Positions 32,312-35,659 are shown, numbered from the stretch's first letter. The stretch is 57,243 nucleotides of DNA from Methanomassiliicoccales archaeon PtaU1.Bin124 (GCA_002067865.1 MVRC01000011.1:200573-257815); one strand, 5' to 3'. Notes: generated from the sequence alone by a model not told the origin. Numbers and translations: made by a program.

Positions 32312-32352
32312 GCACGGGCGGTCGATCCATCCAGCATCCATCCACGCCAATC

Positions 32353-32359
32353 TATATAT
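32353..32359 (+). promoter_or_regulatory. TATA box of the Fur-CbiMNQO operon
   Basis: TATATAT at 32353-32359 lies about 29 bp upstream of the fur-like ATG at 32385, predicting a leaderless transcript. The Fur-box-like site immediately follows it. Confidence 0.6.
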
Positions 32360-32361
32360 TC

Positions 32362-32380
32362 GATAACAGTAATCATTATC
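32362..32380. promoter_or_regulatory. Fur box-like operator
   Basis: GATAACAGTAATCATTATC matches 16 of 19 positions of the classical Fur consensus. It lies between the TATA box and the start codon of a Fur-family gene. An overlapping perfect dyad CATTAT-CA-ATAATG at 32374-32387 reaches into the start codon. Binding here would block initiation, so metal-dependent autorepression of the regulator and the downstream metal-uptake genes is the likely logic. Confidence 0.65.
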
Positions 32381-32384
32381 AATA

Positions 32385-32771
32385 ATGAACGGGAGGAACA
32401 GCAGGTGGACCAAGCAGCTGAAGCTGATCTTGGACATCGTCTATGAAAGCGACCACCCCATCACAGCCGATGAGGTGTACACCCGTTCCCGCGGCTCGAT
32501 GCCGAACATCTCATTGGGCACAGTCTATCGTAACCTCAACAAGCTGGTCTCGGAAGGCCTGGTGTCCGAATCCAATGCGAACGGGATATCCACGTTCTGC
32601 AAACATCCCTTCCCCAACACCACCTTCGAGTGCTCATCCTGCCGCAAACTGGTCAGCGTGCCGGTGGACCTGAACGTTCTGGAGCTTTCCAAGAGGTCAG
32701 GTATGGCGGTGGAGCGCTATACCCTGCAGCTTCACGGCGTCTGTAAGGGGTGTCAGAGAAAATGCACATAA
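32385..32771 (+). CDS. Fur-family metalloregulator
   Basis: The 128-residue protein has the Fur winged helix (TKQLKLILDIVYESDHPITADEVYTRSRGSMPNISLGTVYRNLNKLVSEGLV) and a compact dimerisation domain with the zinc site C-S-S-C paired with C-K-G-C near the C-terminus. Its position at the head of a CbiMNQO operon suggests sensing of cobalt or nickel rather than iron, though the metal cannot be read from sequence. A near-consensus Fur box overlaps its promoter. The cbiM start lies inside its last codons, so expression is coupled. Confidence 0.9.
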   Translation: MNGRNSRWTKQLKLILDIVYESDHPITADEVYTRSRGSMPNISLGTVYRNLNKLVSEGLVSESNANGISTFCKHPFPNTTFECSSCRKLVSVPVDLNVLELSKRSGMAVERYTLQLHGVCKGCQRKCT

Positions 32772-33727
32772 TGGAAGGCTTCCTGGACATCTACTGGTGC
32801 CTGTTCTGGTACCTCATGGCCGCACCTTTCCTGGTGATCGGGGCCATCAAGCTCAGGAAGCTCTTCCAGGAGCACCCTGAGATGAAACTGTCCGTGGCCA
32901 TCTCCGGCGCGTTCATCTTCGTGCTCTCCTCGCTCAAGCTGCCGTCCGTGACCGGTTCCTCCTCCCATCCCACGGGGACGGGCTTCTCGACCATACTGTC
33001 CGGGCCAAGGATCACATCTATCATGGCCACCATCGTCCTTTTGTTCCAGGCGCTTCTGCTGGCCCACGGAGGGATCACCACCTTGGGAGCGAACGTGTTC
33101 TCCATGGGGGTCGTTGGGCCGTTCGTGGCATATGGTGTTTATAAGCTGATGCAGAAGGCCAAGGTCCACGTCGTCGCCACGATCTTCACGACGGCGTTCA
33201 TCGCCGATTTCGCCACCTATCTCACCACGAGCATGCAGCTTGCGCTGGCCTATCCGTCGAACGGCAGCGTGCTCATCTCCCTCGCCACCTTCCTGGGCAT
33301 CTTCGCCCTGACCCAGATCCCGCTGGCCGTGTTGGAGGCCGTCCTGATCGTCATGTTCTTCGATTACCTTTCCCGGTCGAGGCCGGAACTGCTCCGCCCT
33401 GAATTGGTCATCGACAAGGGGAAGAAGATGTCCTGGGCCTCGAGGATGGTGGTGGGCGGGATCGTCGTGGTTTGCATCCTCCTCATCCCCATGCTGATGT
33501 ATGCGGGTCAGCAGCTGGAAGGTACCGACAGCAGCGGCGGGAACGCCATCCAGAACATCGTGCCGGATTACCAGCCATGGTTCGACGGCTTCTTCCACCC
33601 ATCGCCGGAGATGGAACCCTGGCTGTTCGCTCTTCAGGCGGTCATAGGCATCTCGATCATCGGTGCCGTGCTCTATCTGACGATGAGAAGGCGCAGGAAA
33701 AAACGAACGGAAGGTAGCACCGAATGA
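32762..33727 (+). CDS. cbiM: CbiM-CbiN fusion, cobalt/nickel ECF transporter substrate-binding component
   Basis: The 321-residue protein begins M-H-I-M-E-G, the N-terminal metal-binding segment of CbiM/NikM (the start at 32762 is chosen for this reason; GTG 32750 would bury it). Several membrane helices follow, with HPTGTGFS and LLLAHGGITTLGANVFSMGVVGP signatures. The last 100 residues are a fused CbiN (APDY-like VPDYQPWFDGFFHPSPEMEPWLFALQAVIG with helices on both sides). It overlaps fur by ten bases and cbiQ by four. Confidence 0.92.
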   Translation: MHIMEGFLDIYWCLFWYLMAAPFLVIGAIKLRKLFQEHPEMKLSVAISGAFIFVLSSLKLPSVTGSSSHPTGTGFSTILSGPRITSIMATIVLLFQALLLAHGGITTLGANVFSMGVVGPFVAYGVYKLMQKAKVHVVATIFTTAFIADFATYLTTSMQLALAYPSNGSVLISLATFLGIFALTQIPLAVLEAVLIVMFFDYLSRSRPELLRPELVIDKGKKMSWASRMVVGGIVVVCILLIPMLMYAGQQLEGTDSSGGNAIQNIVPDYQPWFDGFFHPSPEMEPWLFALQAVIGISIIGAVLYLTMRRRRKKRTEGSTE

Positions 33728-34512
33728 TGGGCATCGATGAGCTGGCTTACCAGTCCCGTTTGAAGGACCTGCCCCCGCTGGGCAAGTTCATCTTGGCACT
33801 CTCGTTGCTGGTCATCGCATTGACCGTCACCTCGTTCCTTGTGCCGATCATAACGTTCTCCATCGGTCTGGCACTTCTGCTCTACTCCACCGGTGGCAGG
33901 TTCCCGCGAATCGTGCTGATCGCCATATTGGACAGCCTGGCCATCATAATCATCGGATGCGTCCTGATCGCATTCCTGACGCAGGGCGGGGGATCGGTCG
34001 TCCAATTGGACCTGCTCGGCCTGAAATTGTCCTTGCAGCGTGAAGGACTGAACCTTGCCACCTTGGTGCTGCTCCGGGCCTTGGCCGGAATATTCGTCAT
34101 GCTGGCATTCATCACGTCTACACCGGTGCCCCACTTCGCCCTGGCGTTGAAGCAGCTGCATGTGCCGAAGGAAGTGCTCGAGCTCACGGTCCTCATCTAC
34201 CGTTACTCCTTCCTGTTGCTGGAACAGATGGAGGTCATGACCATTGCCGCAGCTTGCCGCCTGGGCTTCCGCGGCCTGAGGAACCAGGTGAAGACGACCT
34301 CCCGCATCGCGGTCGGGCTGTTCTCGCGTTCACTGGAGATGGCGGAGCGGTCCCAGATCGCGTTGCAATGCCGCAACTACCAAGGTGATTTCCCAGTGTT
34401 CCGCCCTCCGCGGAAGCTGACCTGGTCCTGGGTGCTGGGACCTATCGCGCTGGCGGCAGCGATCTATGTGGGCAACATCCTGTTGGAAGGATCGTTCTAT
34501 CTGAGATGGTGA
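33724..34512 (+). CDS. cbiQ: CbiQ, ECF transporter transmembrane T component
   Basis: The 262-residue protein has five or six hydrophobic segments and the coupling-helix region ALKQLHVPKEVLELTVLIYRYSFLLLEQMEVMTIAAACRLGFRG, whose A-x-x-R-G-type motif contacts the ATPase. It bridges CbiMN and CbiO in metal uptake. The start overlaps the cbiMN stop as ATGA, and cbiO begins four bases after its stop. Confidence 0.92.
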   Translation: MMGIDELAYQSRLKDLPPLGKFILALSLLVIALTVTSFLVPIITFSIGLALLLYSTGGRFPRIVLIAILDSLAIIIIGCVLIAFLTQGGGSVVQLDLLGLKLSLQREGLNLATLVLLRALAGIFVMLAFITSTPVPHFALALKQLHVPKEVLELTVLIYRYSFLLLEQMEVMTIAAACRLGFRGLRNQVKTTSRIAVGLFSRSLEMAERSQIALQCRNYQGDFPVFRPPRKLTWSWVLGPIALAAAIYVGNILLEGSFYLRW

Positions 34513-34516
34513 AAGC

Positions 34517-35659
34517 ATGTCCGAACCAGTTATCCGCACCGAAGAACTGAACTACATCTACCCCAACAAGACCGCAGCGCTGGAGGGCATCAGCATCGAC
34601 ATCCCCAGGGGCAAGAAGGTCGTGCTGCTGGGGCCGAACGGCGCAGGCAAGAGCACTTTGTTCCTTCATTTCAACGGCATACTCAAGCCCAGCTCTGGGA
34701 AGGTCTTCTTCGGCGGAACGGAGATCGGATACGGGAAGAAGTCCCTGGAGCAGTTGCGTTCGAAGGTGGCCCTGGTCATGCAGAACCCGGACGACCAGAT
34801 ATTCTCGGCCACCATCGAGGAGGACGTGGCCTTCGGTCCTATGAACATGGGCCTGTCGAGGGAAGAGGTGGAGCGCAGAGTGGACGAGGCGCTGGACCAG
34901 GTGGGGATGGCGGACCTGCGCACCAAGCCCACCCAGCAATTGTCCTTCGGGCAGAGGAAGAGGGTGTCGCTGGCTGGGGCGATCGCAATGCATCCGGAGG
35001 TGCTGATCATGGACGAGCCGACGGCTGGCCTCGATTCCCGCATGGTGCATGAGCTGCTGGAGCTGGCCGATGAGCTGAACCAGCAAGGCCTGACGGTGGT
35101 CATGTCGACCCATGATGTGGAGACCGCCTATTCGTGGGGGGACGAAGTACGTGTGCTGAACCGGGGGCGGCTCATCTACAGCGGCGACTCCGATGGATTC
35201 TTCGTCGATGGACAGAGGGCCAGGAACATCGGCATAACCGAGCCGATACTGTACGACCTGAACCGGACCATGTGCAGACGGAACGAGAAGGCGCCGGCCC
35301 CGTTCCCCAAGAACGTCTTCGAGCTCAACCAGAAGTTCGGCCAGCATGCGAAGGTCCTGGGACAGCTGTACTACCTTCCGTCGGATGCTTTGGACCAGAC
35401 CTCCATCCAAGAGGTCAGGCATCGCATGCCTCATGCCGCCATCGGGCTGCTCGGCACAAAGGCCAGGAGGATCGGATGCAATCTGAACCTGCAGGTGGAG
35501 CATCGCTTCGATGCTTACGATGAGGCCCTGATCGAGGTTGGCCAGGGCAGGGATTTCGTGCTCGTGGGCGACACCTCGTGGAAGGACGAGGTGGAGAGGC
35601 GATTGGCGCTTCTCAACAGCACCTACGGCACTGAGATGAGATTGAAAATTTTCGCCTGA
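34517..35659 (+). CDS. cbiO: CbiO, ECF transporter ATPase with C-terminal extension
   Basis: Residues 1-245 are a standard ECF ATPase: Walker A GPNGAGKST near residue 36, Q-loop MQNPDDQIF, signature LSFGQRKRVSLAGA, Walker B VLIMDEPTAGLD, and switch STHDVETAYSW. Residues about 250-380 add a second alpha/beta domain (AAIGLLGTKARRIGCNLNLQVEHRFDAYDEAL, then DFVLVGDTSW), an extension also known in some archaeal CbiO proteins and of unclear role, possibly regulatory. It energises cobalt or nickel uptake by CbiMN-CbiQ. Confidence 0.92.
   Translation: MSEPVIRTEELNYIYPNKTAALEGISIDIPRGKKVVLLGPNGAGKSTLFLHFNGILKPSSGKVFFGGTEIGYGKKSLEQLRSKVALVMQNPDDQIFSATIEEDVAFGPMNMGLSREEVERRVDEALDQVGMADLRTKPTQQLSFGQRKRVSLAGAIAMHPEVLIMDEPTAGLDSRMVHELLELADELNQQGLTVVMSTHDVETAYSWGDEVRVLNRGRLIYSGDSDGFFVDGQRARNIGITEPILYDLNRTMCRRNEKAPAPFPKNVFELNQKFGQHAKVLGQLYYLPSDALDQTSIQEVRHRMPHAAIGLLGTKARRIGCNLNLQVEHRFDAYDEALIEVGQGRDFVLVGDTSWKDEVERRLALLNSTYGTEMRLKIFA

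Follow-up and report, generated by a model that had tools for sequence, protein, structure and literature searches.

A conserved operator and an altered sensor suggest that a Fur-family regulator represses cobalt import in a Methanomassiliicoccales archaeon

The subject of this analysis is a four-gene locus of Methanomassiliicoccales archaeon PtaU1.Bin124 (GCA_002067865.1), in which a Fur-family regulator, preceded by a match to the Fur box, heads genes for a CbiMNQO transporter of the energy-coupling factor (ECF) type. The locus lies in a stretch of 57,243 nucleotides, hereafter the window (C11:200573-257815, sequence record MVRC01000011.1), taken from a genome of 2.2 Mb, and all positions are counted from the first base of the window. 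The features needed to follow the argument are these:

32353-32359, + strand: TATA box TATATAT, read directly, ending 26 bp before the fur start codon
32362-32380, + strand: operator, the Fur-box match GATAACAGTAATCATTATC
32369-32379, + strand: 11-bp operator core GTAATCATTAT (RTAATSATTAY), conserved in Fur-cbiMN loci
32385-32771, + strand: fur, Fur-family regulator of 128 aa (PF01475)
32604-32618, + strand: codons for HPFPN (residues 74-78 of the regulator), a clade motif replacing the canonical sensor segment
32762-33727, + strand: cbiMN, coding for the cobalt ECF S component CbiM fused to a CbiN domain (N-terminus MHIMEG)
33724-34512, + strand: cbiQ, ECF transmembrane (T) component (PF02361, TIGR02454)
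34517-35659, + strand: cbiO, ECF ATPase (TIGR01166, PF00005), with a C-terminal extension of ~130 aa

The genes are packed as the initial annotation of this DNA had described them: fur overlaps the CbiM-CbiN fusion by 10 nt, the fusion overlaps cbiQ by 4 nt, and cbiQ is separated from cbiO by a gap of 4 nt. Membership in the CbiMNQO group is supported for every component above the respective cut-offs. The fusion, which starts with the ATG at 32762, at the Met-His-Ile of CbiM, carries PF01891 (188 bits) and PF02553 (56.5 bits, cut-off 25) in a single protein and exceeds the CbiM equivalog cut-off (TIGR00123, 296 bits vs 184); CbiQ scores 119 bits for PF02361 and 112.6 bits for TIGR02454 (cut-off 111.8), and CbiO scores 113 bits for PF00005 and 271 bits for TIGR01166 (cut-off 212). 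The regulator is the sole PF01475 gene of the genome. No riboswitch was found between 31500 and 36000 in a search of Rfam at E<=1.

The operator lies downstream of the TATA box and ahead of the fur ATG at 32385; the distance from TATA box to ATG suits a leaderless transcript, as fur presumably has. It agrees with the Fur consensus GATAATGATAATCATTATC in 16 of 19 bases, as had been noted before, and it is the only 19-mer in the window that reaches at least 16/19, against 0.0025 expected from base composition and 0.10 expected genome-wide. Several genera share a core of the form GTAATNATTAC, as in the Zur boxes of Gram-positive bacteria, so that "Fur box" names here the shape of the site and not iron sensing.

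A protein search of this genome and its relatives in the order found the regulator in 33 of 61 genomes. Orthologs from named genomes belong to the Methanomassiliicoccales, some records being labelled merely Euryarchaeota or Thermoplasmatota, and in nearly all readable neighbourhoods Fur is followed by CbiMN, CbiQ and CbiO, an order also present in Candidatus Methanoplasma-type genomes. We then tallied the operator in 36 loci across the order that have the regulator directly before cbiMN. Just before fur, the RTAATSATTAY core is matched in at least 9 of 11 positions in 35 of them, in at least 10 in 31, and in all 11 in 23. Background windows of 75 nt reach at least 9/11 in 3.1% of cases and 11/11 in 0.3%; with a scanned promoter stretch of ~115 nt, the fair chance level for at least 9/11 is perhaps 5%. 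Absence of the site before orthologous operons, the observation named in the initial annotation as one that would undo its proposal, is thus not what these loci show. Within the family of the source organism, the core occupies a nearly fixed place by the start codon. In the deep Methanoplasma-type branch perfect ATAATCATTAT cores, four of seven of them as the full TGATAATCATTATCA, lie ~45-55 bases upstream, and their conservation therefore cannot be explained by coding constraint. We also examined 20 cbiM loci from genomes in which no regulator is linked to them. By best match 16 of these are of the cbiMN type, and no full core occurs in the 300 bases upstream of any of these 16. Among Fur-family genes that are not followed by cbiMN, L062-L064, whose products have canonical ligands, and the unlinked paralogue L053 lack the site, and L057 keeps it. 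With a 7-1-7 operator in its own promoter that is kept in the orthologs, the regulator is a predicted Fur-box autorepressor.

A few loci are of interest in their own right. In G020:C9 (L057, L127), from a genome ~79% complete, a clade regulator with a perfect operator has no cbiM that we could find behind it, and its terminal Cys is lost. In G043:C20 (L047) two clade regulator genes stand in tandem near a contig edge, with an operator that is diverged or absent. In G029:C5 and G032:C7 (L272, L273) the regulator is missing although the genus otherwise has it; cbiM is preceded there by a Shine-Dalgarno-like ggaggataat and by no operator, which reads as a natural deletion. Pairing of Fur with CbiM beyond the order was considered and rejected, as no CbiM lay beside the Fur gene in the bacterial loci fetched or in the other Thermoplasmatota Fur loci read.

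The size of the regulon was approached by pattern searches of the whole genome, along the lines proposed in the initial annotation, which had called for a search for the same site before other metal genes. There are 9 exact core sites in the genome, and 43 relaxed sites compared with 19 for a reversed control pattern. Among the sites read, only that of fur lies in a convincing metal-related promoter, there is no second convincing target, and none has an iron gene behind it; the other core matches, here and in relatives, fall mostly within coding sequence or by unrelated genes. A wider regulon in this genome was accordingly rejected. As no second convincing target was found, the regulator looks like a dedicated autorepressor of its own operon and not a global Fur. 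The conserved operator and the lack of a second convincing target support the earlier description of the locus as a self-contained metal uptake module. That description had missed that the regulator lacks the canonical Fur/PerR sensing residues, so that its sensing of metal does not follow from homology.

That the protein belongs to the Fur family is supported by its PF01475 match (44.0 bits, cut-off 23.1) and by an AlphaFold2 model (predicted local distance difference test score, pLDDT, of 85.5), used for the fold alone, which Foldseek matches to Fur, PerR, Zur and Mur chains with a probability of 1.00 and a template modelling (TM) score of up to 0.78. By sequence profile, the nearest solved structures are PerR and Fur. 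The regulators group in a single clade, set apart by a branch with 100/100 support, and all 26 clade members keep the structural zinc site (C83, C86, C120 and C123, in two CxxC motifs). The regulatory ligands of PerR are H37, D85, H91, H93 and D104 (PMC3458967). At these positions the regulator has P25, C72, N78, T80 and S91, that is, 0 of 5 canonical residues even with D or E allowed at 85. The 26 clade members have 0-2 of 5. The 14 bacterial relatives compared have 4-5, and among 21 other Thermoplasmatota Fur proteins 18 have all five (Asn allowed at 93). The clade has, by these alignments, lost the canonical Fur/PerR regulatory site. In its place we find the motif H-P-x-x-N, with H74 and P75 in 26 of 26 members and N78 in 25 of 26; many members also have His at position 80. 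Few other residues are invariant outside the DNA-binding part and the Cys4 site. H74 lies two residues past the D85 position, where the predicted strand that both share (68-73 in the model) ends, and for that reason it could face the old regulatory site.

As to the metal, the genome has two CbiM-type systems. The second operon (G000:C12:145394-146008, L221) adjoins a gene most similar to CfbB/CobB, and a NikR-like box, GTAGCAC-N13-GTGTTAC (13/14), lies just before its cbiM start. Similar boxes precede the second-type cbiM genes of many relatives, and NikR_C proteins occur in 31 of 31 genomes searched. The same arrangement of half-sites has been predicted as the NikR signal before nickel transporters of delta-proteobacteria (PMC545781). 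The exact NikR pattern GTAACAC-N11-14-GTGTTA had no match in seven genomes, the boxes found having mismatches. The two operons diverge from a single intergenic region in G006, G007, G010 and G013, and this region holds both a Fur-type operator and a NikR-like box. Because a NikR-like box precedes the paralogous operon in a genome that encodes NikR, the Fur-linked CbiMNQO likely carries cobalt, a circumstantial argument; the CbiN domain and the CbiM equivalog score above its cut-off point the same way. Of the two signals initially proposed, cobalt or nickel, cobalt is thus favored. The regulator itself probably senses cobalt, in a manner not yet described.

Three further features of the locus are these:

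32325-32344, + strand: direct repeat ATCCATCCA-GC-ATCCATCCA with 11-bp spacing, upstream of the TATA box, read directly
32373-32388, + strand: perfect dyad TCATTAT-CA-ATAATGA over the fur start codon
32762-32771, + strand: last 10 nt of fur, overlapping the cbiM start

The dyad over the start codon had been noted before as a second, perfect one. It is indeed perfect, and we found it only in three genomes of the same genus (g1); outside that genus the spacing to the ATG differs or the operator is further upstream. Not being kept there, it does not stand as a separate conserved element, and in our view it is either incidental or extends the operator locally. The direct repeat occurs once in the window. 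Near relatives have ATCCA runs resembling it, and promoters of unlinked cbiMN genes have TTGGAT...ATCCAA-like dyads. Together they suggest the site of another regulator and a possible second control element. The conserved Cys-Thr/Ile at the C-terminus of the regulator was considered as a sensor ligand and rejected, as it is absent in loci without the gene overlap: the CbiM codons ATG-CAY-AT, for Met-His-Ile, force a terminal Cys-Thr/Ile-stop in the overlapping fur frame, here Cys-Thr-stop. The C-terminal extension of the Fur-linked CbiO (approximately residues 250-380, 35267-35659) has no Pfam or PDB match; it is weakly conserved and, in a sample of 77 genomes, confined to the order. The paralogous CbiO (269 aa) does not have it.

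Overall, we consider it likely that the regulator serves this Methanomassiliicoccales archaeon as a dedicated repressor of cobalt import and of its own gene. The sequence establishes that cbiM and cbiN are fused and that genes overlap, that the operator is present and conserved, that other convincing targets are lacking, that the genome has one Fur gene and that the canonical ligands are lost; we infer binding, repression, a cobalt or cobalt-derived co-repressor and a site rebuilt around the invariant His74. A Fur-type dimer held by the Cys4 zinc site would bind the 7-1-7 inverted repeat over the transcription start, below the TATA box. When cobalt suffices, the bound dimer would block the transcription machinery at its own gene and at the co-transcribed CbiMN-CbiQ-CbiO genes, and when cobalt drops it would release the operator and the importer would be made. 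The co-repressor would be cobalt or a cobalt-derived molecule, held at a rebuilt site in which His74 may be joined by Asn78 and, in many members, by the His at position 80. Some observations weigh against this proposal. The canonical metal ligands are all missing, so homology does not imply that the regulator depends on a metal. Several genomes keep cbiMNQO without the regulator, which is therefore dispensable, and the linked locus of G043 has only a diverged site, at 8/11. The assignment of the second system to nickel has its own weakness, as the CfbB-like neighbor scores 493 against a CfbB cut-off of 560 and yet exceeds the cut-off of a cobyrinate synthase model, and may be either CfbB, for nickel, or CobB, for cobalt.

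The same autorepressor could respond to nickel, or to nickel and cobalt alike, which we regard as unlikely. CbiM-type transporters can take either metal, methanogens need much nickel, and Nur, a Fur-family relative, is a nickel sensor (PMC3919588); but in this genome it is the separate CbiM-type operon that bears the NikR-like box, with NikR present, and the Fur-linked transporter includes a CbiN domain and scores above the cut-off for cobalt CbiM. It is also improbable, in our estimate, that the signal is a corrinoid or another cobalt-loaded cofactor and not free Co2+, with H-P-x-x-N forming a new ligand pocket. The replacement of all five regulatory positions in a protein that keeps the fold and the Cys4 site would fit such a change, as would the lack of a riboswitch match at the locus; however, no corrinoid-binding domain was detected in what is a minimal Fur, and the invariant His would equally fit a metal site.

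The canonical sensor is lost, and apart from the DNA-binding part, the Cys4 site and H-P-x-x-N few positions are invariant; this could also mean that the regulator no longer senses anything and that negative autoregulation merely sets a constant level of expression. We think this quite improbable: throughout the order H74 and P75 do not vary and N78 hardly does, the association with a single transporter has persisted just as deeply, and this joint conservation suggests a retained signal. Least probable by far is an ordinary iron-sensing Fur placed beside the transporter by chance, in spite of the 16/19 match to the Fur box, since the canonical ligands are absent, the linkage to cbiMNQO is fixed, and no iron gene stands behind any other site read in the genome.

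With PerR, Fur and Zur (PF01475; by profile the nearest is B. subtilis PerR, PDB 2fe3) the regulator shares the fold, the winged helix, the Cys4 zinc site and the 7-1-7 shape of the operator. It differs from them in that every PerR ligand is replaced, in its H-P-x-x-N motif, in its link to a single cobalt importer and in being archaeal. Fur-family control of an operon of this kind is already known: the Fur of Mycoplasma genitalium represses an ECF transporter described as CbiMNQO-like, and its loss raised cell nickel about 10-fold, evidence that points to nickel (PMC6968530). That protein has two or more targets, among them hrl and the transporter, whereas the regulator here is encoded first in its operon, with a single convincing site, and is predicted to respond to cobalt. 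A metal repressor site before an M-N-Q-O ECF transporter is likewise found in NikR-controlled NikMNQO (PMC545781), and this genome has a system of that type, but NikR belongs to the ribbon-helix-helix proteins and not to the Fur family, and its site is of the GTAACAC-N13-GTGTTAC type. Nur of Streptomyces (PDB 3eyy) is comparable as a Fur-family protein specialized to a metal other than Fe or Zn; it has a different regulon, and its profile score to the regulator is 49 bits, compared with 75 for PerR. A survey of Methanomassiliicoccales genomes notes cbiOMQN and is silent on Fur in its main text (PMC10804542), and in some bacteria cobalt uptake is under B12 riboswitches (PMC7689651). We found no report of the clade itself, of a cobalt-sensing or CbiMNQO-linked archaeal Fur, or of the regulation of cobalt uptake in archaea in the open, searchable literature.

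The Methanomassiliicoccales, methylotrophic methanogens that live in guts and wetlands, are expected to depend heavily on corrinoids. The chances seem to us evenly balanced that a Fur branch confined to this order became a regulator of cobalt (or corrinoid) uptake, having discarded the canonical site and built a new one around H-P-x-x-N; it would be the first cobalt-dedicated Fur-family regulator in the literature we searched, and a case of protein control without a detected riboswitch. If true, these archaea would control their cobalt uptake through a protein. As a switch of one gene and one site, with a conserved operator and an altered sensor, the system is directly testable, and it would show how a Fur protein can switch its signal yet keep its fold and its DNA site.

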